A stretch of 54,142 bases of DNA from a virus. The notes below the pieces were generated by a model. The model was not told the DNA's origin. It worked only from the letters and a program-made list of their open reading frames with translations, and made no database searches. The DNA lies in IMG/VR virus record IMGVR_UViG_3300025914_000221, positions 1-54,142 of that record; one strand, 5' to 3'. Of the stretch, positions 26,801 through 52,525 are shown piece after piece (within the stretch, counting starts at the first letter, position 1; every line of letters starts with the position of its first letter). A program made the position numbers and the translations under genes.

Positions 26801-27273
26801 GTAGCAACATCGTCTACATACTCATTGATTGCATTGTCCGGAGAAGAAGTGAATTTGGCAAAGTCTTCTGCTCCCAGGATCTTGGCCGTACCACTGATCA
26901 TGTTCTGTACCTGGTCTACAAACTTGGTAGCAACCATCGGTACGAACTTTAGCAGTGCCCGGCCAACATCAGAGTGCATCGGGTTACCAAACAGGAATGG
27001 CTGGGTAGCTGCCAGGGTATGTTCCTGATCCGTGGGGTTGTTATTAAACTGCGCTCCCTTGGAGATCGCATAGTCGTACTCGGACTTGTCCTGGTTTCCG
27101 AATACATTATTCAGGGCATCAGTAGCCTCCGGGCGGTTATCCAGGCCCTGATCTATCGTTTGTCCTATAGCGTTATTACGCTGGAAAACCGGGTTAGTAC
27201 CCAGTTCATCCGATATACCTACGCCTGTTTGGGCAGGGGTGAACCTGCTTGGAGTACTCTGCTGCTTTCCCAT
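8827..27273 (-). CDS. Giant multidomain virion protein: SF1 helicase, two zincins, RNA polymerase barrel, RecB/Cas4-like nuclease
   Basis: One open frame of 6148 residues. In order: an Ala/Gly-rich amphipathic N-terminal region (about 160-460) that could form a pore; an SF1 helicase (Walker A GTGKT with K1327, D1388-E1389, GDPTQ 1424-1428, motif V YDAQSET around Q1560 lacking the usual HKxQG, motif VI R1592); an acidic Pro-rich linker (about 1650-1730); zincin 1 (HEIFH 2495-2499, likely ligand E2530/E2531); an RNA polymerase beta-prime-like barrel (RIP 3853-3855, DFDVD 3892-3896); zincin 2 (HEVAH 4799-4803, E4850 or E4852); a PD-(D/E)XK nuclease (D5147, DWK 5161-5163, then LQVTLYALM); and a helical tail ending TFWDEVNPF. 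crAss-like phages package virion RNA polymerases with a comparable motif, so ejection with the DNA is expected. It may be cleaved by its own zincin domains (inference). Confidence 0.9.
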   Translation of the reverse strand: MGKQQSTPSRFTPAQTGVGISDELGTNPVFQRNNAIGQTIDQGLDNRPEATDALNNVFGNQDKSEYDYAISKGAQFNNNPTDQEHTLAATQPFLFGNPMHSDVGRALLKFVPMVATKFVDQVQNMISGTAKILGAEDFAKFTSSPDNAINEYVDDVATELKAALPQHASAKYDSDNLGAHLLSSKFWTDDIADGTEFVMAMALGAKGAAGLTEGLAKGAGALSKATNLGELYQSIPITERIATATANNFTTKTVGFLNAASISAMQAKGTANQIQAKLREKYTNTVDPETGMLYAPDKVEQKIKESQDLIDEKTNNTFWATMATELAPSIWASKLFLGRGKESMGLLNEDIKKAVNEGKLTLEDIKNGTNTDVLKKTGFLDTKEISKAALVGGPVAMNLQQSIQQYDVDQAVGGKGGNAWDSKYGYVKQFLDNFTQKEGIKSIILGSILGAGTATVHGFGANGQYNEAMEGHLKAMQAADGLYGGVYAEAMKGIYQTDPAGKLKLNEDGQPVEDIAKIQKLVFGMLQHKELWDSQTAAVLAGNSDMASLNEKVALSQAIASELQSGRYENTDQARQFLKWFHTQRIREQGKVAEKEAQDNQVADSAAQQAPDPEQGQEASVKTQTAISTGTAKGDANISRAVNDNSMLLDKLFDMWDKTGRQAAKLTKIGDNPSRTAFNESVRRTLFYEAAKREALLDMIADRKKQSAEPGADMDQLMAESQVLDKLHQDSLDRSSQLANKPDEVFKHWDKFNSSRHELTNDLFESKAALEKENTKENNQKTNTAAYRLAEFNAKEGIGYPTQTDPSTGDVNWVKGDELNNGTNLFAINQNPLDRQAVPIGMRNDAQFKAGAQYKDMLQLQSMIDSAREGKTPLAEVVAYAHDKIDNLDSNTKAKLQDLIDQQSKQLTEDKQKLAATPEVIEDEEGYPDPNPEYADLSKQVQQREQAIQTSTDLLAKKANDTELDRLQRSPEKQEEYLNRRFAETHFDKAENVLQNAIDNGRVKDTYADSRAVARAIQDVTFMRDAMEDRMKNGDLKGQDGYAYLITKADEILARLAQVQQAVAENQVKRDAIQSYIGQQHAGQIASALGFNLETNSITDPATFNIADGILGGKLQDMFSQIRNLASGNFYEGSQALLHTIKTKATETDKVALLSSLEDKVSAAVAALPEPRSSKHLKTNFGEAPEIYLVPLLRSMTEGQTELNEGKYSPINLFRQNNDLAAFEDSINALPAGDTSLGVTKEKLQAVLKSYREIVSAKQVSHLLGSGLNLETTVGKEIENATGAIVPTTQQEIAIRDGLAWLKADKEVTTGPFAGWGFLRGIAGTGKTSVAMKWLIGLSGLKPEEIISSAATAKAAGVLGSHLGTESVTIDELMDREIPAGKKLIIVDEYARVSSDKLKDFQNKVQVHNKNLSPADRLKVMILGDPTQASPEVFRNQDITDPSSNPDAKRIRVINPLTVVYRSDVSAVTQTSDIFQDNPEEVRSINVRASGDEYTPHAVGTHTGKTAQGILDAIKVNQAAEDPNGLGYTPRTRVIITDTPAKLFFYGSSGVPVISVYDAQSETYDEVYVDLDPKNFYDTEKYNAAMYTAASRAQEYSYIKYADGKNTIDQSLIYEKETNDRKGAEAKGDYIKARTEEQQLMQQGVTGQPLEVTPVTKAEQVANESPLDKATDPEVPEEQEIVAETPSVPDEQTLPGDMEPEGDTQPDTETPAPPVADINPTTVLPSEHILPNIESAAFPALKLDENGQSNIGVNSQVYYFHTRENNGQDSVTVMAMGKDGTYVPISKIFQEEIQKFPQYGWIKEGIKTSTPISGADAINPKGAKAGKLPEELKNSILRKGQISAAQRLTYQYGNQPVEGTGVLKHISDLFKSKFYHSNPDQQAKGDKVHYKIFRKNEVAASKAKGARYQFGGFTPDPGIPYAVIGVEPGATDYRNAQFVRLTANRLDQESEHYTTLKKYRDTATELQRQTGIDHGSSAYSKLVKALKNSLEIVHEDTATGTEPKVRVKENYTREDLESALNKVNEDDRSSMPPELEDLLDPSNAAKLASVLPHAQSLAMQLYGVRESAALMNKEEADKYPDYEHIPAKGEEETGLGRVLLKGTGGNTGRKAVYKKAYELQAGKGPAQKAFDQLAKTNEFAGNIRIRVEDIAAQRASKGRVAVSTGKSLMTDAGGNTAISRARPLLAQILGESKVASGELEEADLDRADIKAQLSREVRQLSSDNGTGILDTGKKILDQSGIDPDTKSEYLGKLARLETLKETSPVTLDTLNMIVGDQNFDDAGRHLTQQEFNVQGRNGRTKTTRTYMRKPLDIDQFNTLGKDPKANADTLATMVGTKLQDIHPTVISVSHEGIETPSGSGRAEEVKVPATTPGSEVELQKKITDLQDRIATAKGKEKIELLKEMKQLREDRYGSAKLFDSSQRGKDTGQLITIDKAREMISQMLPGMKPEEASFLDRMTMLKLQKPGEDLLGLFQDGKILLREDDGSVGSKVVRHEIFHAIYNDYLTPKERQRVSEAFDPLGKMTPQNLEEALADHFMNWQRTPETYGSRIRQLFNKVLSWIGFAKDNAGTISDLFKKIEDGKFQVKSPETSNTRMAFSDIKKYGTIQEYKNASQKVQGIIYRNYVNDSLENMPLTQKELLPVIHEELKNEFNTISKDLDALVEAQQESLRSYELETDPELKAEHSSDVDFISEEIAALNQQYATLNRFMGDDGYSTLKDLWKDLYPNFKTKADLDKFEEDEQYNDPESIERAESEELDKASTGLTDFTVQSDERNNETRISENVKNFLSFVYRPKTVGKNGQEASRVNPRFVYLQSLKTLAGLSSSDPDFTDQIKGRAADMGINLSGRSDAALVVNHILNTIENAKGSSYSFRTGQTDEQGRYRSQEIELPGHNRFLDENTFVTSTENQDLTHSTATGVLADARNFVIKREGKSTTEFLQQVADIVGMDQAKGYFRQLQAQESVRELMSTFLSQRESTPMIAEEVRGFKTTLKYFRAQNYGTERIKTVEVENAFKQNYSKLGQEDWARFNSLSAERGIGKAKALAFLAERMGIKGHTSIPPVDNGLVNAVHGDLEALEASIKQAESEPRPQRDDSDESTPEDFNPVAAALENNTGLLDRFTRLLTLHSAEQRASSYMDVSGTKRYLFHNGSQAHDTIGKIIGYFEKSNTKLRSLPEHFKDPVLAKNIFAGSDINRIYELLDHDGQRQEGKEEFAVTYSKETNTQWLKRNFSDAFLSFMKTNSGNNDAALTYMQNFYTISNRPRMLGASVRVLPEAKIKEALIKGIEQHLEQPDRTDIKNYDRFKAVNFDEMHRAIEELHKDKLEGKPVSEHRNSPEGRAKLGRIYQEISESSELKSQVAGHMIGQLKAHAEEVMETLRREKVPLGSGMHETMRLMKDPRKAILPADAQVLETEINEKENYPSNEDLRATVESFCLNNYVNSFFLNQAVAGNMNYFKDSADLIKRMSGVFAPGIKGMVSSRFFMPEKFRVAISNDIKLQGNLLSDIFNDTQLKATLKKEGFDLTDAQGYMLPERADQIVQGFGQAYNSGAVFKPAHYEVADRGDGNYVPTMLKYSSVVLSDDLVSRFPKLEALRDAMRNHPDGPVHEFVFSTGDKVGTPKELVTLPTDEGAVKIPSESVLSLSNDNYRLQLNPNHDAYDKVANPTQLGYFLNVMHKLTDAGAPNIEAANQVYSAIAEKVTRGIARLSQNSLDKQGKFTAGSIIRTLSGVGNERIQEMLKSGINYNFPNIADKALIQMANITSKGTVKIKFPGGKMVLQSSYGADIPSEIPKGQEEFWSRYGQNVSSSLDHPRRLEYKQDPATGRWHAEVILPKIYADKANPGDFLTGDMMGFRIPSTELHSSVPLKIAGFYDDKGSNVVIAPAELVAQHGSDFDVDSLYTISREQSSKRLWRQDGTEVIDKGHPVGYYREADGSLKFNPDRFRAELDRHRIEYAGDKGVLADVEKLHDQLLNNIVTESFLDTISHESNRQRMLTPISTDVIDNSFKELGIKPELNLNTSRILDNMKMFNSNFQGASLVGVFANGMKALSYMSRAGKSEAGDEYPQLQGENPGITLGDKTYDKFTELDHTGGNMWSELDALVNTSVDNVKDQKLYLMNATDRTGGVYIAAKAIGMPLTDAMRLMLQPVIKWYSTIDGGRSTVLNNLKAEMAEHAVKLGLLENAKYSDIEMELQGRELPKAESLSPKVLDKYLKANSFGETIEEFNHQFHVLKQFERLVKIGDDITDFSRAISIVQDMPVFYQDIATKQDTWNKIGTVTDGKFYTSDQFSFNLDRLFEAQPNIAAAYDTFQWMKKGIDTSLIKHFPEVQSLAKQLDRSMKIKLAGDQNKNIELLKNEVMSYLVSSYYSSELQDQEPVTVSGKKSKNERVVTGKVAWGQQFADRISQVLAEDKKLADNDQNPFLKRIAVKDRGYGIKTLEFANTSNPTAEESVEMQDGFSAIRDESLKQDLVKYAALNYGMSFGVRNYSMFIPSEYLRPLSDFINRDLRDKVQASKLDEEGTLISGPLKHLADNLAIKLAVNNIDRLPYISSKKIQPIHTLDEDGQPKYTSIGNEAVAVHSGYDGEYYWNQAYENPVVKENGDRKYSEDDLPQFIRRREGGIERGRDVAYIRVNDVDSDKIYYQKLGYKNFAGGYDGADRAIDGNYAIEDYFGKGTIPVPVADIRTGKYETYNEHIKPGQHVIVYPYSNETREQGISGIVDKVTEGLVDKTKKSFTLVPNTVDKPNTPDEAAAITAIATDVASRFNLDLHIAEGAAGGKKGSIYGDRINLDPRLMTRDTPFHEVAHPLVAAIQQNNPGWYQSLSIELKESPEGRILLRRVQAAYPELTSSAQEREALVTAIGQEAAGKLKEGSFRTLVRRLMRSVGNLVRQVLTKLKGGEPLTIKDLANEDMVKLRIGDIADILANTKVKLDLSGIQDDVQYSKDLDKPEGIIEKLLSNQDNIKDPEIDINGKQGDTYKVNGDILPRISRVIDNFTFRKKQEYTNPDGSTMSSEDAIAKRDADRMFRNTPPGGKLIIDGVEMDKVTYQEQKKKLQLQGQLKGDIIHAQLQQFFTMDPATKLELTKKIETLAAQSETRADAYNWITDKKVLSKVLDNAGIHVGDQVPENQRDRIYSEIKVASPEIGAGKIDQLIVRPDNRLKIVDWKTGARLKDKYTSNIMKYGLQEHQITDNPLDRAKLQVTLYALMVKAEHPEAKFDGLTVMHIPNEYEATQGRNALNVETSDYLRMIEQYYRNEEPAKYKALLAKSPKLFDPREYNAPRDADYTQDVLNSNGASEAETMQSLRLQLQKLVTTVELRKAEDSSEEWTREERLTRDRLMKKILQGSSLIPVDFSGELDSKYEISTMTRYLANLNDTHNPYIQSYASMLNAGKEAARAEFDTKQREFKRLLGAVLKEKGMNQNLLERSVAWVNKEKVFQNLWNEKETIDPDTGTKYLERGLTVKGDEKYNKLSTAEKALSDYMAKEMKDIFHEVMIMGKNAIVGEDSRGKPMTKLDLYNKSRRGAAFEYKDNFVPRVAITHEEVLQRATRNGLSGIAAYGKDFFLRHATDFFENNIEGYNQKDYGLPVRFLGNANTYASPDSYSMDLQLAFEKYMEQMINKKHLDHSWVAGQALKGYLETRNDMNGNPAFKNAAGFLDFQINNVLIGDRLLRGSGKLTRQGMAVYRKDGENYNISPVKIYRSLKSGFAASTLWLQPARSLKNAIQLEYMQGKEELVNGILRGIKGTNTKELDLSPKSMVANYKEAMGSQFTQLTGNTDTDFIHQLAKKLRLYPAMNEMGISPSDSMTRGARLLSTHNFAYLYQMPEEVVNVQYALSFLKNLKVEGGKYAGKSMYEMYKNSFDKTTGEFKLPADFTRGKIQLPDGTFDTLSGLHPMEVQKIHRGIAKLQGGYRSDEKTAVQATILGDALMMFKRWIPGMLVNQFKSKYEDPSIGQFEKVMDSAGQLKQRDGEDVYEWRARVVEGRAKVMGRLIMNYMGMAKNSGYNWGDLSTEQRKSVIDFSVALGTWASMLTMSAALLGKRNEKDTLKEFTTEMTGRLFEQWAVPVMADSALQPPAVVKKSLEIGKGFYALLAGGINEAVGGPDEQTYTNKGDRKGASLIEKNLPFSSSLYEINKDRENADKDTFWDEVNPF

Positions 27274-33452: not shown

Positions 33453-33772
33453 AAGTCTATTTCTGGTAAGGGAACTGTTTGACCTTTAAGTTTATGTCCG
33501 CAATCTGGTAAGAACTGTATATTGCCATCCCTTACAAAAGAGTGGCACCTAATATCAGGGTTATCACACCATACTAAGATAGAAGGATTAATGGTTGGCT
33601 TTTCTTCATTACCATTCCAGGTCCATACACTATTTCCATTAGGGTCTCCATCAATACCTGCTCTTACCCTGGGAGTATGATAACTCTCGCAGCCTGGGCA
33701 CCAGATCCAGACTAAATCCCCCAGGTCATTGCCTGAAGTATCTGTACTACTTAATAGTTTTGCTACTTTCAT
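33449..33772 (-). CDS. DUF6527-like small phage protein
   Basis: This 107-residue protein has the pattern I know from DUF6527: WIWCPGCESYH near residue 22, WTWNGNEEKPTINPSI near 50-65, then RCHSFVRDGNIQFLPDCGHKL and a Pro-rich end. Cys and His pairs (CPGC, RCH, DCGH) could bind a metal. Such proteins are widespread in phages of many hosts and their role is not established. It is linked by ATGA overlaps to the genes before and after it, so it is made with the tail proteins. It separates the hub candidate from the muzzle-like gene. Confidence 0.75.
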   Translation of the reverse strand: MKVAKLLSSTDTSGNDLGDLVWIWCPGCESYHTPRVRAGIDGDPNGNSVWTWNGNEEKPTINPSILVWCDNPDIRCHSFVRDGNIQFLPDCGHKLKGQTVPLPEIDL

Positions 33773-36700
33773 GTGATATGGATTGTTATGGTTACATCTA
33801 TGTACAAACTTGGGTTCACGGTATTATAGCAGCGGATTACCCAGATATTATCGATCCCTGCAACCAGGAAGCTATTGTTTAATATAGTAATATTCCCAAA
33901 GGTACCGCTTGTCGGGTCAATATCAATATTGATTGCCCCAGTATTGTTATAGGATTCCAGGATATAGTCTACCGGGTTAGAGCAGGTAGCTGCCAGGAAC
34001 AAACCTATTAAAGTACCATTTGGCGTGGTATGGCCCGCAGTAAATACACTGGTACCAGACCAGGTTGGCGCGGTAATCCCTGGGTCTACATATACCGGTA
34101 TAGAAATGGTTGCCGTTACCCCATTCATTGTCAGGGAAATTCCCAAGGTATAAGATGGTGTAGTTGTCCGGTTAATGCTGGAATTATCCGCTATCGTAAT
34201 TGCGCCTGTTACGCTATCAATTGCAAATACGCCTGCGCTATCACCGGAAATGATCTCCCAGTCCGGAGTACCTCCATCCCGGTTAGAGCCCATCATTACG
34301 CCTACCGTATCGCCATTACTGATCGTATCCAGTATATGGAATACCTGCGGACCTATCACTGGTGTGCTTGGTACGTGGATGAGCGTCACGGTCTGGGTAG
34401 ACGTGGCAGTGTTCCCGTTGTTATCGGTTACCTGTACCAGTAAGGTAAGTACCGGAGTAAGTACCCAGTCGAATACAGTCGTATTCACTACGGTAAGCTG
34501 CCCGGTAGTATGGTCTATAGCCACTGCGCCATAAGGGTTACCACTAATGATACTATAGTAGTATGGAGTAGCCCCATCCGTAGCCGTTACCGTCCCGATA
34601 ACCGTACCGTTTGCAGAATGCTCATCCAGGCTAAAGGCGCCATCGGTCATCTGTGGGAAGGGTACGCTGTCGCACATAAACCCTGAAGTATTTACGCCCT
34701 GAAACACCAGGAACCTGCCCCGGGTATAAATGATACTTACTCCTGCTGTTAGCCCGGCAATAAATTCTGGAGTAGGCTCATAGCCGGGCACAAAGTTCTG
34801 TAGGCCAACAACCAGGTTCGTATTCTTGATCGTGAGCAAGATCCGCCTGTAGCGCCAGTCATATCCAACGGTGATCCCGTTCCCGGAAAAGACATCGGTT
34901 TGGCGGATCTGCATATACTTCATCAGGAAACGTTCTACCCCGTCAGAAAGGTTATTAAGCTGCTCCCCGTCAAAGAGAAAGAACTCTCCGGTCCGGGCAT
35001 CCGGAAATACATAGCCTGCAGGCGTCAGGTAGCAAGCCAGCGGGTGCTGGGTACCTGCATAGCCCAGCTTGGAAGGCCTGGTCTCTTTAGGCGTAATGGC
35101 AAAGATATCCCCAGATCCCAGGGTAATTTGTGCCAGGTCGGTATTCAAGGTCTCCTTGCTTCTGGTTCTGTAAAATGCTTCGGTCAGGTGGATGATCAGG
35201 ATGTCTCCCATTCCCTGCAGGTTAGCTATCGCTCCTTTATCTTTTACAGTCTCAAAGTAATCCAGTGCATTAAAGTTCTTCCAGTTATTTACTTTTCCTT
35301 CCGCTATCTGCTTAATGCTCCTGGTAATCTTATGAGGAGAACGGGAGACGAAGATATCGAAAGGGGAAGCCGGTGCAATACCATTCAGTAGGTTACCTAC
35401 TGCATTGACGTCTTTACTGTAACCGATCTGGTTCGGGTCTGTGTCCCTGGAGTAATCAGCCAGGAAGCCAAGACCTGCCCCGGCTGTATTTTCTTTAGGT
35501 ATAAAGCCGCTATAGATATTCCCGGGCAGTTCATAACGCCCTGCCATATTGCTTACAGTTTCCCCGATGAAAGTACGGACTACCTTTATGCCATCTGTAG
35601 GCAGTGTTTTCCAGTCTTCCCTGCCTACATCGTTCTGTACATCCAGGTCAGTTACCAGGCCATAAGTATTGAAGCTATTATAAGAAAGGAAAGTATCTCC
35701 CCCATAGATCGTCTGGTCAGAACCGGATTGAGCGGTATTGAAGGTATAACCGGTACGTACCAGAGTCTGGTTATAGAAGGACTGGTAGAGATTATCCCGG
35801 TAAACCATCAGGTTAGCCAGGTAGGTCTGTTCAAAAGCAGGAGGGGTATTATTTCCCCGGTCATAGTCCCTTCTCATCCAGGTCCAGTTAGTCATCTCCA
35901 TCAGCCCGCTATCTGGCACCGGCAGGTGACAGGCATAACAGCTTTCCAGCCGGGTATTGTTAATACTCCCGCTAACTTCATCGTTTACTACATACTGCCC
36001 CTCGTCTATCCTGCGAAGCGCAGCACTATCCGGTACGGCTAGCGGGGCGTCTACGTAGGGAACATGGTTACAGTAATCCAGCCAGAAACAAACCTGGTTA
36101 GCGTTATTGACAAAAGTATTGGCATTGGTTGTCGGGAAACGGATCACCAGTCCATACTGCACGGATAGATGGGTAGGCGAAATCGAAGGCCTGCTGATCA
36201 GCAAGTCCAGCGCATGGAAACGGACGTAGTTGTCTACGGGCCGTAAGGACTCCGGGTCACTGGTCCCACCGGCACTATGGGTTCTTTGATAAGAGCCCCA
36301 GTTCCCACCAGAGAAGCGGATATTTCCTGCATGCCCCGCATAGGCCTGGTTAGACTGGGTACCGAATAACAGCAGGCTTTGCCCCTGTACGGTAGCATTA
36401 TTAAAGTCCCGCTGGGCATAATGGATCTCCCAGCCAATCACCCTATTCTGCAGTTCTGGCGGAATCTGCACATTGAAAGCTTCCAGCCCCAGGGTATCCA
36501 GTACAGTCCTACCATACTCCGGGTTTGCCGAATAAAAGTTATTCTTACAGAACCGTAGGGAAGGGGTACGGAAGTGCCTTACCGGCTGTCCCCTCAGGTC
36601 TGCTCCGCCCAGGCTGGTACTATCAAAGTCAGGTGTATCCGGGTAGACTTCGCCCTGGTTTACCCAGACCCCGAAGTCCCCGGAGTTATCCGAAGTATCG

Positions 36701-37902
36701 ATATTCTTTACTGTATCTTCCAGCATGAACTTTGGCTTATTAAGCCCCTGTTCAGAACCAAGTGAAGAGGTAGCCAGGTCTGCCGATATAGGGGCCGGTC
36801 CCGGAATAATAAACCCACGGGTACTCCTGCCGGTATTGAGCTTCAATACGATATAGAAAGCATAGACTTCCTGGTGCATAAAACCCCGCTGTTTACCGGA
36901 ATCGTTTAAAGGTACCGGGTGTACACCTGCCGTTAACAGGCTGGACTTCCAGCGTAGTCGAACCAGGTTGGCATACTGCTGGTAGTCAATAATGTTCTCT
37001 TCGTACATATCCCCCATATACAGCGTATCATCCAGCTGTGTCATAGCGCCTATATTCTCATAGAAAGCTCCCGGGACGAGTACTTCGTCCATGGTGATCT
37101 GGGTGACATTCTCCCCGCCTGTATAGATGAACTGCATGGTAGCCGCTACCTGTAGTTCTGGCAGCTCATAAGGCGTATCTACCCCGTTGACTTTCTGTAC
37201 CACACAAATGATCAGCGTGTCAAACCGGGTATCTACATCCGTCAGGTTAATGGTTAAGGCCTTACCCGTGTTACTGCCCGGGATAGTGGAATAGTGGTCG
37301 TCTGTTGCAAATAGCGGGGCAGATAATGTCCCGTAACGGGTCTGTGTCCCGTCCTTTTTCAGGTAGCGTACGGCTACATAATAAGCGCCCATTCCCAGGT
37401 TACCCCCGCCACTGATCTCCAGGTCTATCTTTGGAAAGTTGGACTGCGGGAATAACAGGAAGTCATTCAAGGTAGTCCCTGGCGTAACGGTATTCATAAA
37501 CCGGGGCGGGTTAGCGCCGGCTGTGTTATTCAGCTCAAACCAGGCAACCTCGATCTGGTCCAGGAAATTCCTGCGGGCTTCCCCTTTGATAGGCCGGGTC
37601 AGGTCAAAGTTCAGCTTAAAGCTCTTGGTCGCGTCATTCAGGATAGGGGTATAAACGTCATTAGCCTCATCAAAGAAGCCAATTGCAGAGTAAACATTGT
37701 CTGTAGAAAAGATGATCGGGTAAGTGTCAGTTTCCACCACACCTATTGGGCTGTAAGGAATATTCACAGAACTTGGGAGAAAGCCGGGTTCGTTTTGTAC
37801 TGCCCTGCGGTTACGATCCCAGATCCCGTTTTTTCCATGCCAGTAAGTATCCGGAGAAGCCTCCTGTGGCTTGGTACTATTAACCAGTCTTTCGGGCTTC
37901 AT
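33769..37902 (-). CDS. Tail hub / muzzle candidate with C-terminal cadherin-like repeats
   Basis: This 1377-residue protein has a large beta-rich N-terminal part (about residues 1-1080). It starts MKPERLVNSTKPQEASPDTY and carries many strand-turn units, resembling the large tail-hub/muzzle proteins of crAss-like phages (compare P22 gp10-type needle-base proteins). Residues about 1083-1377 are three cadherin-like repeats of roughly 95 residues (for example EHSANGTVIGTVTATDG, then AIDHTTGQLTVVN; later FAIDSVTGAITI). Such repeats often bind calcium and stiffen fibres or mediate adhesion. The start overlaps the 268-residue connector gene as ATGA, and its own stop overlaps the next start in the same way. 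Hub identity is inferred from size, order and pattern; the cadherin-like repeats are clearer. Confidence 0.72.
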   Translation of the reverse strand: MKPERLVNSTKPQEASPDTYWHGKNGIWDRNRRAVQNEPGFLPSSVNIPYSPIGVVETDTYPIIFSTDNVYSAIGFFDEANDVYTPILNDATKSFKLNFDLTRPIKGEARRNFLDQIEVAWFELNNTAGANPPRFMNTVTPGTTLNDFLLFPQSNFPKIDLEISGGGNLGMGAYYVAVRYLKKDGTQTRYGTLSAPLFATDDHYSTIPGSNTGKALTINLTDVDTRFDTLIICVVQKVNGVDTPYELPELQVAATMQFIYTGGENVTQITMDEVLVPGAFYENIGAMTQLDDTLYMGDMYEENIIDYQQYANLVRLRWKSSLLTAGVHPVPLNDSGKQRGFMHQEVYAFYIVLKLNTGRSTRGFIIPGPAPISADLATSSLGSEQGLNKPKFMLEDTVKNIDTSDNSGDFGVWVNQGEVYPDTPDFDSTSLGGADLRGQPVRHFRTPSLRFCKNNFYSANPEYGRTVLDTLGLEAFNVQIPPELQNRVIGWEIHYAQRDFNNATVQGQSLLLFGTQSNQAYAGHAGNIRFSGGNWGSYQRTHSAGGTSDPESLRPVDNYVRFHALDLLISRPSISPTHLSVQYGLVIRFPTTNANTFVNNANQVCFWLDYCNHVPYVDAPLAVPDSAALRRIDEGQYVVNDEVSGSINNTRLESCYACHLPVPDSGLMEMTNWTWMRRDYDRGNNTPPAFEQTYLANLMVYRDNLYQSFYNQTLVRTGYTFNTAQSGSDQTIYGGDTFLSYNSFNTYGLVTDLDVQNDVGREDWKTLPTDGIKVVRTFIGETVSNMAGRYELPGNIYSGFIPKENTAGAGLGFLADYSRDTDPNQIGYSKDVNAVGNLLNGIAPASPFDIFVSRSPHKITRSIKQIAEGKVNNWKNFNALDYFETVKDKGAIANLQGMGDILIIHLTEAFYRTRSKETLNTDLAQITLGSGDIFAITPKETRPSKLGYAGTQHPLACYLTPAGYVFPDARTGEFFLFDGEQLNNLSDGVERFLMKYMQIRQTDVFSGNGITVGYDWRYRRILLTIKNTNLVVGLQNFVPGYEPTPEFIAGLTAGVSIIYTRGRFLVFQGVNTSGFMCDSVPFPQMTDGAFSLDEHSANGTVIGTVTATDGATPYYYSIISGNPYGAVAIDHTTGQLTVVNTTVFDWVLTPVLTLLVQVTDNNGNTATSTQTVTLIHVPSTPVIGPQVFHILDTISNGDTVGVMMGSNRDGGTPDWEIISGDSAGVFAIDSVTGAITIADNSSINRTTTPSYTLGISLTMNGVTATISIPVYVDPGITAPTWSGTSVFTAGHTTPNGTLIGLFLAATCSNPVDYILESYNNTGAINIDIDPTSGTFGNITILNNSFLVAGIDNIWVIRCYNTVNPSLYIDVTITIHIT

Positions 37903-43861: not shown

Positions 43862-45379
43862 TTATAGGCCTGCAGTACACTGCAAGTCGAAGCATTTGTT
43901 TGCACGCAATAGTTGTATGCCACGGGTAGACAGCCTGGTATAAGACGACTTATCCACATCCGTTGCCAGTAATGCCGAGTTCAAGTCAGAGTTAAAGTTA
44001 CCTTTGATCTGTAGTGACTTAGGCATAGTAGTTAAGCCTTTCAATACACCGTCCAGTAAAGCACGGTTTTTCTGGCATACTACCTGCAGGTTTGGCTGGC
44101 CATCATAGTCGTTATCGTCTATGAATACCATACGGTAGCTTTCCAGCGGATAACCTGTTTCCGGGTGACGCGGAGAAGCTTGTGCTACCTTGCCATGGTC
44201 AAACAGCGGGTTATATTTTACCTTGATAGTGTAGCCATCAATGTGATAGAACCCGGTGAAGAAGCCGCCCAGCATCAGATCGCGTCCGGTACCGGTCACG
44301 AACTTGTCAGCGATGTCGCCACCGCCAAAGCTGGTTAAGAACTTGATACCTTCTGCTTTCATTGCCGTATCGATCGCACGCATACCGCCTTTACCCGTCA
44401 TCAGGGTAATGGTCATGTTGTCGGCATCGGTCTGAGAGAACAGCGCATCACCGATCTTGTTCTGCAAGCCCTGGTAGGTCAATGTAGAATAAGTCGATTT
44501 ATTGGTAATCTGTTCCAGGAGGCCAGAACCAAGAGGAATGACTTTACCGGTCAACACGTCTTTCAATGGAATAGAGCCATTGGCCAGACGGTTATAACGG
44601 CTATACCAGTACTGGTGCTCACATTGTGATAACCAGGCTTTCTCGAACTGCCACATGAACAGGTCCATCCATACACTGGTTTCTTTTCCGTTAGCTGCCT
44701 TTACGGAGATATTCATCACCTTATCAGCAGCAGCACCTGCCCAGCTTAAGCCGGCACGGATGATACCCATCTGGTTCTTGTATTTACCAGGAGCAACCAT
44801 TACGGATTCAGTAGTACGGGATTCGGATTCCGGAGCTGCAGTGAAGAGCTCTACCCAGCGGGTACCGGCAGCCAGTTCTGAAAGCGGACAGAAGTCAGAT
44901 GCAGCAGCTGCAGATAATACTGCCGTATATTCCCATTCATTACCTACCTTGATAGGGTCCTGATTGATGAAAGCCTGTACCTGGTGTTCTGACTGGATGA
45001 TGAAGAAACGTTTAATCCAGTTGTCCGTGAAACGGATCTTGAATTCTGAGTTACCTATACCAGGCTTGTTGCCGGTGGTATAGATAGAAGATGCGATAAC
45101 TGATACCTTAGTATCCCTGCCCATTACCGGGTAGGTAAACTGGATATCGTCCAGTTCGATCTGAGTGCCTTTCAAGCCTGAATTGTAGCCAACGCTACCA
45201 GTGGTCATGGAAGACAGAGGGAACTGCTTGGTGTAATCTCCCAGGATGTATACTAACTTCCTGGTAAGTTCGGACGGTTTGCCTTGACGTTGATGGTAAA
45301 AATTCTGCTCATCGAGCATCGATTTACTATCGAAGATCTGCTCCTGTACCTGGTACTTTAACGATGGTCCGCGATTCAT
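43862..45379 (-). CDS. Major capsid protein (crAss-like, HK97-fold expected)
   Basis: This 505-residue protein has the size of crAss-like major capsid proteins (about 490-510). Its N-terminus is hydrophilic (MNRGPSLKYQVQEQIFDSK) and the sequence is a soluble alpha/beta mixture with no membrane segment or catalytic motif. The region near residues 240-260 (DLFMWQFEKAWLSQCEHQYW) resembles the aromatic segment I know from crAss-like capsid proteins. Its place directly after a scaffold-like gene and two genes after the portal is the strongest support. It is followed by a hairpin, suggesting its message level is set separately from the genes after it. Identification is by pattern and order. Confidence 0.8.
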   Translation of the reverse strand: MNRGPSLKYQVQEQIFDSKSMLDEQNFYHQRQGKPSELTRKLVYILGDYTKQFPLSSMTTGSVGYNSGLKGTQIELDDIQFTYPVMGRDTKVSVIASSIYTTGNKPGIGNSEFKIRFTDNWIKRFFIIQSEHQVQAFINQDPIKVGNEWEYTAVLSAAAASDFCPLSELAAGTRWVELFTAAPESESRTTESVMVAPGKYKNQMGIIRAGLSWAGAAADKVMNISVKAANGKETSVWMDLFMWQFEKAWLSQCEHQYWYSRYNRLANGSIPLKDVLTGKVIPLGSGLLEQITNKSTYSTLTYQGLQNKIGDALFSQTDADNMTITLMTGKGGMRAIDTAMKAEGIKFLTSFGGGDIADKFVTGTGRDLMLGGFFTGFYHIDGYTIKVKYNPLFDHGKVAQASPRHPETGYPLESYRMVFIDDNDYDGQPNLQVVCQKNRALLDGVLKGLTTMPKSLQIKGNFNSDLNSALLATDVDKSSYTRLSTRGIQLLRANKCFDLQCTAGL

Positions 45380-46553: not shown

Positions 46554-46556
46554 ATC

Positions 46557-46586
46557 CAAATCTAATTAATAAAACAGCCCCTGCAA
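46557..46586 (-). promoter_or_regulatory. Bacteroidota-type promoter for scaffold and capsid genes
   Basis: On the minus strand CTCTTG, 19 nt and TAGATTTG match the Bacteroidota consensus, with the same CTCTTG and the same 19-nt spacing as the portal promoter. The TTG lies in the loop of the preceding terminator hairpin. The expected leader is under 20 nt and is made mostly of the conserved element. Confidence 0.65.
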
Positions 46587-46595
46587 GAGGGGCTG
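46564..46595 (-). terminator. Rho-independent terminator after the portal gene
   Basis: On the minus strand CAGCCCCT-CTTGC-AGGGGCTG is a perfect 8-bp stem with a 5-nt loop, followed by TTTTATTAATTA. It lies in the 95-bp gap after the portal stop. Confidence 0.8.
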
Positions 46596-46631
46596 ATAGG
46601 CTTATTAATTATACATTATTATTCGTTAAAG

Positions 46632-49082
46632 CTATTTAGCCGGCTTAGGCTTGGGTTTTGCCTTGGCGATCTTCAGATCCATTGCTTTACTATGCTTGGC
46701 AATGCGTTCCTTGGAGGCAATCTCTTTCTGCTTGGTTATATTCTTCTGCTCCTCGATACGGATCCTGGCCTTTTCCATTGCCAGTTTATTGGATTCCGAC
46801 TTGTTATGCATCTCCTTATCGGCAAACATCCGGTCACGCTCGTTGGCGCGGGCCATGATTGCATCAATATCTGCACCATCTGTTGTATCCGGGTTCATCC
46901 CGTTTGCTACTTCCTGGATAGCCAGGTTGATATCTCCCTGCAGGATCACCAGTTCTTCCTTGCGGGTATATTCCTGGTTCATCTGCTCGGTATCCAGTAA
47001 GCTTTCGTATTCCTTGAACTGCTGATCCAGCTGTATCTTCTCGATCTCGTTCTGGTGCTCAGATTCAGCCTGTTGCTGTTGCAAGGCAAGCTGTTCTTCT
47101 TTTACCTTCTTGAGTAATCCCTTGAGTTTGGAGATATTATCCGCTGTCTCCATCTCGATAATGGTAACCGGGTCCTGTCCGTTCTGGGCAAAGGCCTGGC
47201 AGTACTGGCGAATACGTTTTAGGGCATCATTCTCGGCTCCGGAGTCAGAGACCATTACACCCAGTTCTGCATAGCAGTAGTAATCCGGGTTGATATCCAG
47301 GAGCTGTGTCCGGGCATCATCGGTTGTATAGGCAGCCCGCTTACCGGTACGGTTTGCAATCTGGCTACAGTTAATTAGCCCTTCTATCTCCGTCCTGCGG
47401 AAGCGGTCGAAGTCCTGGAAGATCATTTCCGTGATCACAGAACTCTGGAAGACGGCTTCCTGGTTACCGCCTACGGTATCAGATGGGGCTGTTTCTGCTT
47501 TACGCTGCCGGGAAATACCCAACTGGCTATCCCACTCAGATTTACAGAACTCCATGATCGAGATGATCTCCTTGATATGCTCAAACATGGAAAGGTCCAT
47601 CACCTGGTAGGTATTCCAGGACTTATCTACTCCAACCTGGTTACGGTCCAGCAAACCCCAGCCATGTGCCTCGGCATAGTAGATAAACTTTTCTTCGTCC
47701 CATCCTTCATGGGTATAAGGGATGGCATTCTTATCGATCAGGGCAAACTTCCCCTTAGACTTGGTAATGGTTCTTTCCAGGATAATGGACATGATACAGT
47801 ACATGATCTGGAAAGGAATACCCAGCTTGGTCACAGAGATATTCTCCGCATGCTGGTCAGAGAAGTTATAGCCGTTATAGCTTAGTTCATGTTTAGAGAA
47901 GTCATTGATCTGGTTAGGCTGATACTCCGGAGGTCCCATCTCAGTATAGATATCGTCTCCTATCCGCCAGCCTTCCAGGATCTGGGTAACCCACTGCCAG
48001 TCTATCGTTTCCCCGAAGTCCGGGTTAGGCTTATAATCTTCCCCTACTAAATCAGAGTATTCTTCTCCTGTGAATGGGTCGGTTCCCTTCAGGTAACCTA
48101 CCTTCTGCATGCCTTTCCACTGGTAGTGGTAGACCGGCAGCTTGTTGTACTGGTAAGTTTGGTTATTCTCCAGGTAGTTATATAAACTTGCCGGAGAACT
48201 AATAGCCGACATCTTTTCAATGTTGTCAATATCTCCCGGGGTAATACTATCATAGAACCGGTCCACTACATCGGGTACGGTCCAGAACTGTCTACGGCAT
48301 GCCCAGCTCCCGTCCTTGATAAACTTCTCATGCGGGGTCTTATCGTAATCCAGTTCCAATGGGGGAACGTGGTGATAGAATGTCTTATCCCGGAGTACTC
48401 CCTTATAACTCCTGCCTTCTCCACAGATCAGGATGTCCTTGAGAATGTCCTGTAGCTTATCCTTTACCCGCTGGTCATCCATTACCAGGTCCAGGTCAGT
48501 CTGTGCCTGCGAGGCCAATATATCTTTAAAGCTGTTGGCAAATTCCTCGGTCAGTTCTTCTGGCATTTTTATCTGCTGGGAGTCCACGCCTGTTGGCGGA
48601 GTGGCATCTGCAGCCGGGTCGGTAGACTGTGCCCCGCCCATAGCTGCGTTGGTCGCATTGATAAAGTGCTGGCTCAGGTTCTGGAAGACGGCTTGTTTCC
48701 TGGCCTCCAGGAAGTTGTTATAGCCCTGCTCTCCTTTGACTACGATCTGGTAGGGGAATGGCCGTTTTGGATACTCTCCCCGTAAGAGTTCTACGTTTGG
48801 CCGGATAATATTGTGTGGTCTTACCTTGGCGCCCCAGTTCTCATATTCCTTCTTCTGGGTAGAGTAAGGATTCATCACATGCGTAAACCAGGAACTCGGG
48901 AAACGGGAGTTGTAGATATTATACAGACCCAGGATAACATTCTGCCTGTCTCCTGATCCCATCGGAGAATGGAAGTGAGAAGTCTGCAGACCCCAGTCTA
49001 TATTCCGCTTGAACCACTCGTAATTATTAGCTACCTTCTCCGACCAAGATAGCTTCTGCAGGGGTTTTGCGCTGGGTATCAT
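46632..49082 (-). CDS. Portal protein
   Basis: This 816-residue protein sits directly after the large terminase and two genes before the capsid gene, the usual portal position. Residues about 505-560 carry a pattern I know from large Bacteroidota-phage portals (LGISRQRKAETAPSDTVGGN, then VFQSSVITEMIFQDFDRFRR). The C-terminal 200 residues are a long charged coiled coil (KVKEEQLALQQQQAESEHQN and onward) ending in a basic Lys/Pro tail, KAKPKPKPAK. The portal ring forms the DNA entry and exit channel and is where the terminase and neck dock. It uses a TAG stop, with a TAA two codons later. A strong promoter abuts its start, so translation may be leaderless. Confidence 0.85.
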   Translation of the reverse strand: MIPSAKPLQKLSWSEKVANNYEWFKRNIDWGLQTSHFHSPMGSGDRQNVILGLYNIYNSRFPSSWFTHVMNPYSTQKKEYENWGAKVRPHNIIRPNVELLRGEYPKRPFPYQIVVKGEQGYNNFLEARKQAVFQNLSQHFINATNAAMGGAQSTDPAADATPPTGVDSQQIKMPEELTEEFANSFKDILASQAQTDLDLVMDDQRVKDKLQDILKDILICGEGRSYKGVLRDKTFYHHVPPLELDYDKTPHEKFIKDGSWACRRQFWTVPDVVDRFYDSITPGDIDNIEKMSAISSPASLYNYLENNQTYQYNKLPVYHYQWKGMQKVGYLKGTDPFTGEEYSDLVGEDYKPNPDFGETIDWQWVTQILEGWRIGDDIYTEMGPPEYQPNQINDFSKHELSYNGYNFSDQHAENISVTKLGIPFQIMYCIMSIILERTITKSKGKFALIDKNAIPYTHEGWDEEKFIYYAEAHGWGLLDRNQVGVDKSWNTYQVMDLSMFEHIKEIISIMEFCKSEWDSQLGISRQRKAETAPSDTVGGNQEAVFQSSVITEMIFQDFDRFRRTEIEGLINCSQIANRTGKRAAYTTDDARTQLLDINPDYYCYAELGVMVSDSGAENDALKRIRQYCQAFAQNGQDPVTIIEMETADNISKLKGLLKKVKEEQLALQQQQAESEHQNEIEKIQLDQQFKEYESLLDTEQMNQEYTRKEELVILQGDINLAIQEVANGMNPDTTDGADIDAIMARANERDRMFADKEMHNKSESNKLAMEKARIRIEEQKNITKQKEIASKERIAKHSKAMDLKIAKAKPKPKPAK

Positions 49083-49086
49083 AGCA

Positions 49087-49116
49087 CAAATATAATAATT
49101 GGTTTGTCTTATACAA
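49087..49116 (-). promoter_or_regulatory. Bacteroidota-type promoter for the portal gene
   Basis: The minus strand carries CTCTTG, 19 nt and TATATTTG, with the TTG inside the last codons of the terminase gene. The -7 box ends 4 nt before the portal ATG, so the transcript should begin at or next to the start codon. Confidence 0.65.
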
Positions 49117-51238
49117 GAGAGTCGTTCAAACTAATGTACTGAGTGTCATCGGCTGTTCCGCCAGAACCAAAGGAAGGCCGGTTAAACATATCTCCTGCCG
49201 GCTTGCGGGTAGCCCGCTGGTTCTCCTCGATCTCATGCTCCTTGAACATGTACATCATCACGATTCCGCTGGAGATCCTGTCCGCATTCCGCACCCCATT
49301 GTACTTGACGATCTCCTGCAGGAAGGGGATATCCTTTACCGTATGTAGGTTGTACAGGATGTTCCCCATAGGCGTAATCCCCCTGGGTTTCATCAGCCAC
49401 TGTGCCAGGTAGGAAAGCCCGTTCACCTTCTCATCGGTAGAAAGGTTCATAAAGTAGTTCCTGTTCTTCTGGTTACTGTTCTCCTTGGTATTGAACTGGC
49501 TGGGCTCGAAGTGGAGTTTATGCAGTTTATTCTTCCGCTTAAAGTAGTCATAGAGCCCTTGTCCCCCACCTGCAATTTCCGACTGTATCCTGCAGTTATA
49601 GTAGTCTGAAAGATAATCGGTAATCCGGTAAGCTGTCTCCAGGCTTTGCGGTCTGGCTGTATACCAAGCTACGATCTTATCCCCGTAAGGGTGCTGCTGG
49701 GTCTTTTGCATGATCACCTTGACGCTCCAGAGGGAAGTCAGGTCTTCTGCCTGGTCCTTATAGTAAGGATCGACCACTACGTCATAGAGCCCTTCGTAGG
49801 CTAGGCCGAACCGGTCGGTAATAGGCGGATCCATGATCGTCACGCAGCCATTCAGGTCATCATCCATTGCATGCGGGTACTTGGCTATCGGCAAAGCTCC
49901 TGGTTCTGGCTTAAAGCGGATCTTTCCGTCCTTATCCGGGTAAAGGATGCCATTCTGCAAATCAGAGGTCAGGTCAGGATTGACCTGTAACTGGCGTAAC
50001 CACGGGAGTACTTCTGCTACCGGGAAGATATTAGTTGATAGTCGCTGCAGGGCTTCTGAAGGCGTACGGGAATACTCGGCTACCCTCCGGTCCAGTTTCT
50101 TGGAGTCCTTGAGCAGGCGTTTTTTGTCCCGTTCCTTCTCGTCATACTCCAGGGCTGCCTCCTTATCTACATTCCCGTCATCATCCATGAATGAACTATA
50201 GGTCAGGTAACAGGGAACGTAGTAGCCGCACTCGGTAGCTTCCATCCCTTCTTCCCAGATGTTATTGAAGGCCAGGATATCGAAGGCATCCGGGGTATTG
50301 AAGATCTCTTCCAGCCCTTCGATAGAGGGACCTTCCTCACCACCTGTACCGAAGACAGAAAGCTGGCCGGTCATGATATCCCCATCCCGGTAGGACGGAG
50401 AGGCAATCTCCCATGCTTTCAACAGGTTCTTGAAGGAACCTGCCTCTTCAAATACGCCCTTGATCCCATCCTTACCACGGACTTTCTCCGGGTCATTCAC
50501 GATTACCCCAATGATCTCCGACTGGTAGCCATGCGGGTTACGCTTCTTATCCAGGTAACTGGCCTTCTGGTGCATCAGTGTATTATGCTCCATCCGGTTC
50601 TTGAGCCACCAGCCCATCGTATTCTTATTCAAATGGTCTAGTTGGTCCTTTACCTTATTGAGGATACCATCCTTGGTTAAGAAGTCATCTTTGGAAGCGA
50701 AGTAATAGGAGATGGATTTGGGGATGAAGTTATAGTTATAAACGCCATCTGCTGCTTCCTTATAGGAGAAGCCTGCACGGCGGGTTTTCAGGCAGCCCAG
50801 GTTTTTACCCACCAAGTAGTCTTTAACAGGCAGACCCTCGATCTGGAGTTCTGCTACCTGCTCTTTGAGCATGCCTTTCATGGCAATCTCCTTGGCCCAC
50901 CACCAGTTATAGTCTACTTCCCAGAACCGTGGAAAGAGGAGCTCCTTAGGTTGCATGGCTCTGATCTCCCGGATAACTCCTTCTTTGAATACGTTATTCC
51001 CGGAGCCCTCTTTAGCTACGGTCATCTTGATCGGGGAGAAATTCAAATACCAGTAATGCCGGCCAGTGATCTTCAGATCTCCAACCTGGTAACCATTCTT
51101 ACAGCGATCTTCCTGCGTCTCCCAGAAGAGTTTATATTCGGGATGGCCCTTGGGAGCTTTACAGTAGGTACCATCCCGCTTAAATACTATAGCAGCTTCA
51201 GAGAAATACCTGGTATTGACGAAGGTCCTGAGTGCCAC
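49109..51238 (-). CDS. terL: Terminase large subunit
   Basis: This 709-residue protein starts with GTG, one base after the preceding gene ends. The ATPase half shows a terminase-type Walker A variant, KTRRAGFSYK (151-160), and a Walker B GVFEEAG with E264-E265. The nuclease half begins near D490 in VVVDPYYKD. Aromatic-rich segments (VDYNWWWAKEIAMKG) precede the ATPase. The layout and length fit the crAss-like terminase, which docks on the portal, pumps DNA into the procapsid and cuts the concatemer. No small-subunit gene could be named, although one of the short proteins upstream may serve. Downstream is the portal with its own promoter, whose -33 box lies in the end of this gene. Confidence 0.88.
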   Translation of the reverse strand: MALRTFVNTRYFSEAAIVFKRDGTYCKAPKGHPEYKLFWETQEDRCKNGYQVGDLKITGRHYWYLNFSPIKMTVAKEGSGNNVFKEGVIREIRAMQPKELLFPRFWEVDYNWWWAKEIAMKGMLKEQVAELQIEGLPVKDYLVGKNLGCLKTRRAGFSYKEAADGVYNYNFIPKSISYYFASKDDFLTKDGILNKVKDQLDHLNKNTMGWWLKNRMEHNTLMHQKASYLDKKRNPHGYQSEIIGVIVNDPEKVRGKDGIKGVFEEAGSFKNLLKAWEIASPSYRDGDIMTGQLSVFGTGGEEGPSIEGLEEIFNTPDAFDILAFNNIWEEGMEATECGYYVPCYLTYSSFMDDDGNVDKEAALEYDEKERDKKRLLKDSKKLDRRVAEYSRTPSEALQRLSTNIFPVAEVLPWLRQLQVNPDLTSDLQNGILYPDKDGKIRFKPEPGALPIAKYPHAMDDDLNGCVTIMDPPITDRFGLAYEGLYDVVVDPYYKDQAEDLTSLWSVKVIMQKTQQHPYGDKIVAWYTARPQSLETAYRITDYLSDYYNCRIQSEIAGGGQGLYDYFKRKNKLHKLHFEPSQFNTKENSNQKNRNYFMNLSTDEKVNGLSYLAQWLMKPRGITPMGNILYNLHTVKDIPFLQEIVKYNGVRNADRISSGIVMMYMFKEHEIEENQRATRKPAGDMFNRPSFGSGGTADDTQYISLNDSLV

Positions 51239-51239
51239 T

Positions 51240-51536
51240 TTACTTTTTCTTGGTTATTTTAACTCTTAAAGTCATAGCAAAATCTTGGGCTGCAGGCTGC
51301 AATTGCTGTATCCAGCTAATTTGATAAGGCCCCAAAGTTATTCCTACCTCATTATTGATCCCTCTGTATAATCCTGGGTTACTTAGAGCGGAGTATAGTA
51401 ATCTGCCTATGGCATCCTGATATTCAAACTCAGTTAGCCCTTCTTCTCCTGTACCCTGAGTCAAACTTTCTATCTGTTTCTTCAGGACATTGTATTCATC
51501 CAGATCAATGATCACCTGTGGTTTGCTATGGGTCAT
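51240..51536 (-). CDS. Small protein between co-chaperonin and terminase
   Basis: This 98-residue protein has an N-terminal helix (VIIDLDEYNVLKKQIESLTQ), an acidic linker, and a second part with a Tyr/Gly-rich turn (SNPGLYRGINNEVGITLGP) ending in basic KITKKK. It has no membrane helix. The start overlaps the GroES-like gene's stop as ATGA, and its stop is one base before the terminase GTG, so all three are translated together. Its place directly before the large terminase would suit a small terminase subunit or packaging accessory, but no sequence motif supports that specifically. Confidence 0.6.
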   Translation of the reverse strand: MTHSKPQVIIDLDEYNVLKKQIESLTQGTGEEGLTEFEYQDAIGRLLYSALSNPGLYRGINNEVGITLGPYQISWIQQLQPAAQDFAMTLRVKITKKK

Positions 51537-51904
51537 AATACTGCCAATATATCCTGTTCCCGCATGATCAGGTAAGTGTTACCATCCAGGATGATCTCCT
51601 GCCCGGAGTACTTCCCAAATAGGATACGGTCCCCTTCTTTCACGGAATTAGGAATCGTGCCATGAGTAGTAATAGAACCAGGCCCTACTTTAAGTGCAGT
51701 ACCTTTGAAAGGGCGTTCCTTGGCAGAGTCAGGGATAATGATACCGGACTTAGTGACGTTCTGTTCATCGTCCTCTTTTACCAGAACCCTGTTATCAAGA
51801 GGCCTAAAGGTCTCTATCTCCGGTATTGTGTAATACTCTTCTCCATTAATCGTATGGACAGTATTTCCGTTCTTGTCTTTCTTTGTTTTTATAGTCCTTG
51901 CCAT
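51533..51904 (-). CDS. groES: GroES-like co-chaperonin (Cpn10)
   Basis: This 123-residue protein contains a full Cpn10 domain from about residue 33. It has FRPLDNRVLVKEDDE, then the mobile loop NVTKSGIIIPDSA with the hydrophobic triplet III (55-57) that in this family contacts GroEL. GTALKVGPGS, VKEGDRILFGKYSG and EIILDGNTYLIMREQDILAV follow. The first 30 residues are an extra, charged extension compared with the usual 97-residue GroES. By analogy with T4 gp31 and other phage co-chaperonins, it probably works with host GroEL to fold the capsid protein or the very large virion proteins. No phage GroEL is visible here. It is coupled by ATGA to the 98-residue gene and has the conserved leader before its ATG. 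Confidence 0.93.
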   Translation of the reverse strand: MARTIKTKKDKNGNTVHTINGEEYYTIPEIETFRPLDNRVLVKEDDEQNVTKSGIIIPDSAKERPFKGTALKVGPGSITTHGTIPNSVKEGDRILFGKYSGQEIILDGNTYLIMREQDILAVL

Positions 51905-51921
51905 TTCTGTATAGTTTGGTA
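51905..51921 (-). promoter_or_regulatory. Conserved leader element before the GroES-like gene
   Basis: The minus strand reads ACCAAACTATACAGAA directly before ATG, matching the copies before the scaffold and 415-residue genes. No -7 box fits in the 21-bp gap, which favours a translational role for the element. Confidence 0.5.
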
Positions 51922-51925
51922 TTAG

Positions 51926-52525
51926 TTAATATTCATCAGGGTCTTCCCGTACACCCTTCTCGGCATCTCCCCGCATATCCAGGGTCTCGTTAATTTCCAG
52001 TCTGACCTTCTCTTCCATCTCCTGGATAGCCATTTCCAGCTTGGGCATATTGGTAATCGCATCCTGTATCTTCCGGATATCGTACTTGAGTCCGCCTGAG
52101 TTGGTCTCATCAGCGAAGTTTACATTCCTTAAGAACTTATTCATTGCTAGTTTAGAGGCCTTCATATCCCGCAGGGTTTGCAGGCTCACAGAACTATGAG
52201 AGACCATATCCTGGTACTTGGTCAGTGCATACATGAACTCCTCGTCTGTCTGCATCTCCTTCCACTTATCTGAGGTGATTTGGGAAGCTTGTAAGCTAAA
52301 CTCCAGCCTACGCTCATACTCTTCCTCTTCGTAGGGGGAATGGAAGTCCTCAAGCAGGTAGATCAGGGTAAACTCCCGGGTAGCTTTCTTCTTGTACTTC
52401 CCGGAGCCATCTCCAGCTGAGCCTTTATCCCTTGCCAGTAAAGCCCTGAACTCAGGTATTAAACTGATCCAGGGCTTATTCAGCGTTACCATATTATTGT
52501 CACCAAGTTCAAATAGCTTTATCAT
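51926..52525 (-). CDS. Conserved-looking protein upstream of packaging genes
   Basis: The frame gives 199 residues from the ATG at 52525. A second in-frame ATG at 52492 (MVTLNKPWISLIPEF) would give 188 residues and avoids the 17-bp overlap; I cannot decide between them. The N-terminal segment PEFRALLARDKGSAGDG, then KKKATREFTLIYLLEDFHSPY, resembles a protein I recall next to terminase genes in Bacteroidota phages. The rest is helical and acidic (KLEMAIQEMEEKVRLEINE). The role is unknown; a packaging or DNA-binding accessory fits the position. Confidence 0.65.
   Translation of the reverse strand: MIKLFELGDNNMVTLNKPWISLIPEFRALLARDKGSAGDGSGKYKKKATREFTLIYLLEDFHSPYEEEEYERRLEFSLQASQITSDKWKEMQTDEEFMYALTKYQDMVSHSSVSLQTLRDMKASKLAMNKFLRNVNFADETNSGGLKYDIRKIQDAITNMPKLEMAIQEMEEKVRLEINETLDMRGDAEKGVREDPDEY

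Follow-up and report, generated by a model that had tools for sequence, protein, structure and literature searches.

The window analysed here, a 54,142-nucleotide stretch of viral DNA (IMG/VR record IMGVR_UViG_3300025914_000221), belongs to a crAss-like phage, as is evident from its capsid, portal, TerL and muzzle proteins and from its gene order. The late genes lie on the minus strand in the order P0004, P0001, P0003, TerL, portal, P0006, capsid. P0001 (51533..51904, minus strand) encodes a phage co-chaperonin GroES/Cpn10 of 123 aa, recognised by profiles, structure matches and a predicted model, and is flanked by P0004 (51926..52525, minus; 199 aa) and P0003 (51240..51536, minus; 98 aa). These are followed by the genes of a crAss-type TerL of 709 aa (49109..51238, minus; phrog_6681, 6.2e-94, and placement in a tree), a crAss-type portal protein (46632..49082, minus; phrog_6547, 9e-86), P0006 (45400..46536, minus; 378 aa), which takes the place of the unnamed gene intervening between portal and capsid in named crAss genomes, and a major capsid protein of 505 aa (43862..45379, minus; PF23898 Crass_capsid, 1.3e-59), a possible client of the co-chaperonin. 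The order TerL, portal, unnamed gene, capsid is common to the window, Carjivirus, cr8_1 and cr3_1; a megablast search of window positions 30000-54142 against a phage collection gave no match. Also on the minus strand are a crAss muzzle protein (33769..37902; PF25731, 1.4e-29) and an open frame for a giant protein of 6,148 aa (8827..27273), the other client proposed in an earlier, sequence-only reading of this DNA. The giant protein contains a helicase-like AAA domain and a PD-(D/E)XK nuclease domain, and positions 2817-7544 encode a possible tail fibre or spike of 1,575 aa, which has a pectate-lyase-like domain (PF12708, 8.7e-17).

The sequence-only reading had placed the co-chaperonin gene correctly at 51533-51904 and described it as coupled to terminase genes, which the spacing bears out. 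The frame runs on the minus strand from an ATG at 51904 to a TGA ending at 51533, its stop overlaps the start of P0003 by 4 nt (51536-51533), and P0003 ends 1 nt before TerL. P0004 is separated from P0001 by 21 nt, and the two are probably read together. By position only, P0004 is a candidate small terminase subunit; it gave no significant family or structure match, and homologues are found upstream of TerL in many relatives. In a single comparison of P0003 with the 132-aa protein at the matching place in the sister record L076, a 15-residue similarity was observed (E 0.004).

The motif TAnnTTTG is a Bacteroidota promoter element. It occurs 8-60 nt upstream of 4 of the 26 gene starts tested (P0001 excluded; mean at random places 0.52), a count equalled or exceeded in 8 of 2,000 random draws, and is absent from the 70 nt preceding P0001. 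Given this enrichment, and the hosts listed for related phages (Flavobacterium, Bacteroides), a Bacteroidota host is likely. The sequence CCAAACNATACAGA has three exact matches (window 43758, 46538 and 51906, minus strand), each located just before a gene start (P0008, P0006 and P0001, respectively); allowing up to 3 mismatches gave 15 matches, which is the chance level. The pattern ATACAGA(0-4)ATG occurs six times in the window against 0.76 expected, four times at listed starts (P0001, P0006, P0008 and the gene starting at 53060) and twice within genes.

Two other IMG/VR contigs carry the P0001 gene in the same position, with 0 of 372 nt different. A special conservation of the GroES gene in sister contigs was considered and rejected, as the neighbouring genes are equally unchanged: the four genes from 53060 to 51240 are free of differences in L001, and so are those portions of them that were compared in L002, while L001 differs from the window at 36 positions in TerL and at 29 in portal. 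The identical four-gene block beside differing TerL and portal genes thus indicates a mosaic of strains, rather than a mark of the GroES gene. More broadly, window positions 39260-53779 compared with L001, L002 and L014 display gene stretches with no or few differences beside genes with ~1.5-3% mostly synonymous differences, a mosaic that suggests recombination.

Domain, motif and structure of P0001

A complete Cpn10 domain, as had been claimed, covers residues 33-122 of P0001. The PF00166 match has an E of 5.7e-30 and 103.6 bits (cut-off 21.1) over profile positions 2-92 of 93, phrog_3188 (co-chaperonin GroES) matches at 2.8e-24, and 15 NCBIfam GroES models match, one of them above its cut-off (NF001531, 109.8 vs 96). 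Likewise, solved-structure sequences matching P0001 are Cpn10-type chains, with E down to 1.5e-26. The assignment is far beyond chance. The GroEL-binding motif in E. coli GroES is GIVL. The corresponding motif of P0001, located in the mobile loop NVTKSGIIIPDSAKE, is GIII (residues 54-57; 51734..51745, minus), as the sequence-only reading had noted, and GIII is found in 65 of the 79 bacterial GroES sequences measured. From alignment, the roof-loop span comprises residues 75-90, PGSITTHGTIPNSVKE, between anchor glycines 74 and 91 (51635..51682, minus).

The AlphaFold2 model of P0001 (27 sequences, pLDDT 86.8) is a Cpn10 barrel and has the fold of GroES. All 33 listed PDB matches at E ≤0.001 are Cpn10-type chains (GroES or Cpn20), with Z 11-14 against GroES chains and 8.7-8.9 against T4 gp31. 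The second Cpn10 domain of algal Cpn20 (7ekq) also aligns with P0001 (7ekq_R, Z 10.0), albeit Cpn20 has two whole Cpn10 domains and P0001 one domain plus an extension. Apart from its unusual extension, P0001 is clearly a phage GroES of a fairly ordinary kind.

The charged N-terminal extension, previously put at about 30 residues, is indeed present and in frame, and comprises residues 1-32 (51809..51904, minus). Strands are predicted at residues 5-9, 15-19 and 22-25 and a short helix at 29-32, with block pLDDT values of 81-84 over residues 1-30 in the AlphaFold2 model. Codon 1 is the sole ATG, GTG or TTG ahead of codon 88, and consequently the extension cannot be trimmed by assuming a later start; the upstream gene ends with a stop codon in the P0001 frame, 24-22 nt before the P0001 ATG. 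Possible N-terminal extensions are also seen in several other phage Cpn10 frames.

Cpn10 genes in crAss-like relatives

CrAss-like loci were collected from IMG/VR by capsid (best 80 of 433) and by TerL (best 80 of at least 502) and, before any tree was built, were sorted into sets alpha, beta and gamma according to their TerL score against the window or their capsid score. The sequence-only reading had proposed looking for the gene in relatives, and Cpn10 proved to be often present in other crAss-like phages and rare among the window's closest. In a subset of the loci, a TerL-fetched sample of 47 virus records and 6 named genomes, Pfam Cpn10 was found above cut-off in 29 of 53 records (29/47 virus records, 0/6 named). 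The corresponding figure for whole records (50 of 72, shorter contigs being dropped) was 3/50, or 7/50 when E values up to 1 were allowed. A model iterated from the P0001 matches retrieved 99 open frames from the loci, including repeats and the window's own.

Positions relative to TerL were counted after dropping four repeats of one contig and loci without TerL. The Cpn10 gene of set beta (77 contigs) lies 1.2-2.8 kb upstream of TerL, and is present in 54 of the 58 contigs that have 1.5 kb or more of upstream sequence (missing in L116, L125, L137 and L160) and in 46 of the 48 that have 3 kb or more (missing in L116 and L160). In set gamma, 10 loci (among them near-copies and one fragment) have it downstream of the capsid gene, at a distance of 1.0-1.2 kb in eight and of 1.9 and 3.4 kb in two. 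One 95-kb contig (L072/G088) has Cpn10 at position 801 and the capsid gene near the other end, which is the gamma position if the genome is circular. Set alpha, the closest to the window, has Cpn10 upstream of TerL in 1 of 31 contigs with at least 1.5 kb of upstream sequence (L097), and a search of whole alpha records with model A13 matched 2 of 21, namely G095 (L097) and G079, where the gene lies elsewhere. Six alpha records of 87-99 kb (G053, G056, G058, G062, G063 and G074), near-complete as judged by length alone such that any of them may be a fragment, gave no Cpn10 match with model A13 or with a search model of the gut-type protein described below; likewise, the 60-kb sister record L076 gave none by Pfam, model A13 or the gut-type search model. 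The 69 other phage loci examined that have a canonical Cpn10 (L004, L005 and 67 more; one contig counted twice) had no crAss TerL, portal or capsid within flanks of ≤8-10 kb.

The Cpn10 proteins come in two builds, distinguished by the span between the anchor glycines. Identical rows, rows of <75 residues and the G079 Cpn10 were left out of this comparison. P0001 has a roof span of 16 residues, the 79 bacterial GroES have 12-17, and 9 of the 60 Cpn10s from other phages have ≤10; the latter two sets are biased to the canonical form because they were fetched with patterns shared by P0001 and GroES. The span is 7-8 residues in all 49 beta and other crAss rows and 8 in all eight gamma rows and in L097; in total, 58 of 58 measured IMG/VR crAss-type Cpn10s are without the GroES roof loop (examples are L119, L135 and L130 in beta and L058, L071 and L060 in gamma). 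For T4 gp31, a passage of PMC6318259 gives a mobile loop of 22 residues versus 16 and describes the roof loops as absent. The roof lengths and the gp31 build, taken together, indicate that the crAss-type Cpn10s share the missing roof with gp31 and that P0001 does not. Like T4 gp31 and RB49 CocO, P0001 is a phage-encoded co-chaperonin, and like gp31 it has a Cpn10 barrel, but it has neither the longer mobile loop nor the roof absence reported for gp31 in that passage. Its resemblance to bacterial GroES (PF00166; Thermus Cpn10, 4v4o and 1wnr) extends to the whole domain, GIII, the roof and the loop lengths, the spacing before and after GIII being that of bacterial GroES, from which it differs by the 32-residue N-terminal extension and by being phage-encoded beside TerL. 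The roofless crAss-like Cpn10s (defined here; A7, A8) sit, like P0001, in a packaging or head module; they differ from it in roof span (7-8 vs 16), in standing apart in the best tree and in gene position.

A related protein was found in cr1_1 and in 32 other phage records, some of which are double entries of one genome. In these 33 records it is annotated as 'chaperonin' or 'putative chaperonin' in 25 and as hypothetical in four, the remaining four records being unannotated; its length is 125-143 aa in the six inspected, and the seven records inspected for taxonomy belong to Suoliviridae. This gut protein has no Pfam match up to E 10, an E of 0.11 against the phrog GroES profile and a weak profile link to Cpn10 (67%; 12%), and its five matches among solved-structure sequences were topoisomerase chains (best E 0.066), with no Cpn10. 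A structure was predicted for one IMG/VR member (9 sequences, pLDDT 79.2). Its 13 best Foldseek matches are Cpn10 chains, none at E ≤0.001, and it scores Z 8.1 against Thermus Cpn10 (the best) and 7.8 against gp31, a range that may mean only a common arrangement. As judged from this predicted structure, the gut Suoliviridae 'chaperonin' probably has the Cpn10 fold, and like P0001 it lies upstream of TerL. Unlike P0001, it has no recognisable GIII in the alignment, and a long hairpin (strands 32-46 and 52-64) is predicted for its mobile-loop region. The gut-type search model gave no match in three Intestiviridae (W04-W06) or in Flavobacterium phage W02, and W02 matched model A13 weakly (2.8e-4). 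This part is not new, since GenBank already names the gut protein a chaperonin.

Origin of the roofed gene

A genome-contig scan with P0001 alone yielded 78 pattern matches and no relative. A second scan, performed with a three-row alignment, yielded at least 583 relatives, of which the best 80 were used; among these, which come from many phyla, bacterial GroES sequences are up to 57% identical to P0001 over about 91 residues. Other phage Cpn10s reach 55%, and seven aligned crAss-type rows 25-34%. These best 80 of at least 583 relatives do not allow a bacterial donor to be named, and no clear signal of foreign codon use or GC was seen in P0001.

In a quick tree of 131 rows, based on few columns, 19 beta sequences, seven gamma sequences and L097 group together (93) with P0001 outside, in a loose phage set beside bacterial sequences; the G079 sequence is placed elsewhere on a long branch. 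Similarly, a 44-row tree has 16 crAss-type Cpn10s on one side of a branch (99/99), P0001 not among them. Joining P0001 to the crAss-type Cpn10s costs 6.8 log units, which is not rejected (p-AU 0.134), and P0001 could be a slowly evolving inherited gene that shares its descent with the roofless type. The TerL tree, built with one in five beta rows and leaving out L001, L002 and TerL frames of <550 residues, places the window within the 36-row alpha set (support 95) as sister to L076 (99), with a long-branch warning at that point. Within these 36 rows, a Cpn10 is found in the locus of the window and of L097 only.

With its GroES-length loops and its roof, P0001 looks like a separately acquired bacterial-type GroES, and separate uptake of a bacterial-type gene is the simplest account. 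Alternatively, P0001 could be an inherited crAss-type Cpn10 that stayed near the bacterial form and kept its roof, which would be in keeping with the p-AU value for one clade and with the occurrence of crAss-type Cpn10 in two other sets of the virus group as well as in L097 of alpha. This is unlikely, as every one of the measured crAss-type sequences is roofless, P0001 falls outside their group in the best tree (99/99), no Cpn10 is detected in the nearest relatives, and the gene occupies a different position.

The extension offers a further, weaker lead on the origin of the gene. Its predicted outline is a strand, an NG turn, a strand and a short helix, in agreement with that predicted for the C-terminus of crAss-type Cpn10s (strand, DG turn, strand, helix), a likeness spotted after the fact. 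Against a first crAss-type model, from which window-like rows were excluded but which still included L005, the extension scored 5.8-6.1 bits on the C-terminal hairpin, a score reached by 6 and 13 of 5,000 shuffles (36 and 32 residues, respectively) and by none of 2,674 segments of other window proteins. Since L005 had been fetched via a pattern from the extension itself, the model was rebuilt without L004, L005 and L010. The score then fell to 4.5-4.8 bits; 18 and 31 of 5,000 shuffles scored as high, as did 2 of the 2,674 segments. With the bacterial Cpn10 model the score was 1.2-1.6 bits, matched by 376 and 481 of the 5,000 shuffles and by 128 of the 2,674 segments, and for a mixed model containing P0001 itself the score was reached by 2 of these segments. 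The likeness to the hairpin is a weak lead: the extension could derive from an earlier Cpn10 or be a hairpin by chance. The bolder scenario, in which a roofless co-chaperonin was an old head or packaging part of crAss-like phages, arose independently of T4 and was replaced in the window's lineage by a roofed, bacterial-type GroES, with the C-terminal hairpin of the former protein persisting as the N-terminal hairpin of P0001, seems rather improbable.

Function and wider pattern

Our preferred reading, to which we assign a probability of roughly two in three, is that P0001 is a working GroES-type co-chaperonin separately acquired by a crAss-like phage with a probable Bacteroidota host. Copies of P0001 would form a roofed ring, presumably heptameric, with mobile loops that dock through GIII on host GroEL. 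Produced late, the ring could supply an extra lid, or extra folding capacity, during the bulk synthesis of head and other late proteins. The lineage of the window, in a clade mostly without detected Cpn10, would have gained a GroES of bacterial type immediately upstream of TerL, independently of the roofless Cpn10s that, similar to gp31, are found in the packaging or head modules of other crAss-like clades.

The sequence-only reading had invoked T4 gp31, with P0001 as a specialised co-chaperonin that would widen the GroEL cage to accommodate the capsid protein or segments of the giant protein. The location of P0001 in the packaging operon fits this proposal, as do the T4 precedent, where GroES cannot replace gp31 for gp23 according to a part of PMC3012670, and the size of the capsid protein, whose 505 aa are near gp23 (about 56 kDa in a passage of PMC6318259). 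Still, the loop and roof lengths of P0001 are those of GroES, and its model is nearer to GroES than to gp31 in the Z scores given above; a gp31-like build was rejected on these grounds, and cage widening of the gp31 kind is not supported. The six 87-99 kb alpha records encode capsid proteins 59-64% identical to that of the window and have no detected Cpn10. The sister record L076, also without a detected Cpn10, has a homologous frame of 6,144 aa; over a tested piece of 1,000 aa of the giant protein the identity is 35%, and none of 11 further records matched this piece. Consequently, neither client appears to need a phage GroES in that clade, the idea that the capsid or giant protein is an obligatory client was rejected, and the P0001 gene may be dispensable. 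The gp31-like proposal as a whole is therefore distinctly unlikely. That P0001 has left folding altogether and serves a structural or regulatory role, with the extension as its working part, is very unlikely despite the predicted structure of the extension and the possible extensions of other phage Cpn10s, as GIII, roof and barrel have all been kept.

Phage co-chaperonins have their standard model in T4 gp31. The wider pattern, with roofless Cpn10s in the head or packaging modules of crAss-like phages and a single roofed lineage, is a more interesting result than P0001 itself. With a recurrent roofless crAss-like Cpn10, the question of why a phage carries its own GroEL lid could be put to the test in a second virus group, by natural comparison between sets with roofless lids, a set mostly without a detected lid and one lineage with a bacterial-type lid. 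Among the titles and abstract openings found in the open-licence literature on crAss-like phages and GroES or chaperonins, the Cpn10 of crAss-like phages is absent, and a word search of the main text of PMC7886860 returned no GroES, chaperon or Cpn10. As for other phages, part of PMC11348598 reports GroEL and GroES genes in 155-190-kb phages of the Flavobacterium immuto group. Among the contigs retrieved here, a 127.8-kb virus contig (L005:9977-11892) carries a Cpn10 gene directly followed by that of a 538-aa protein which, by eye, is GroEL-like.
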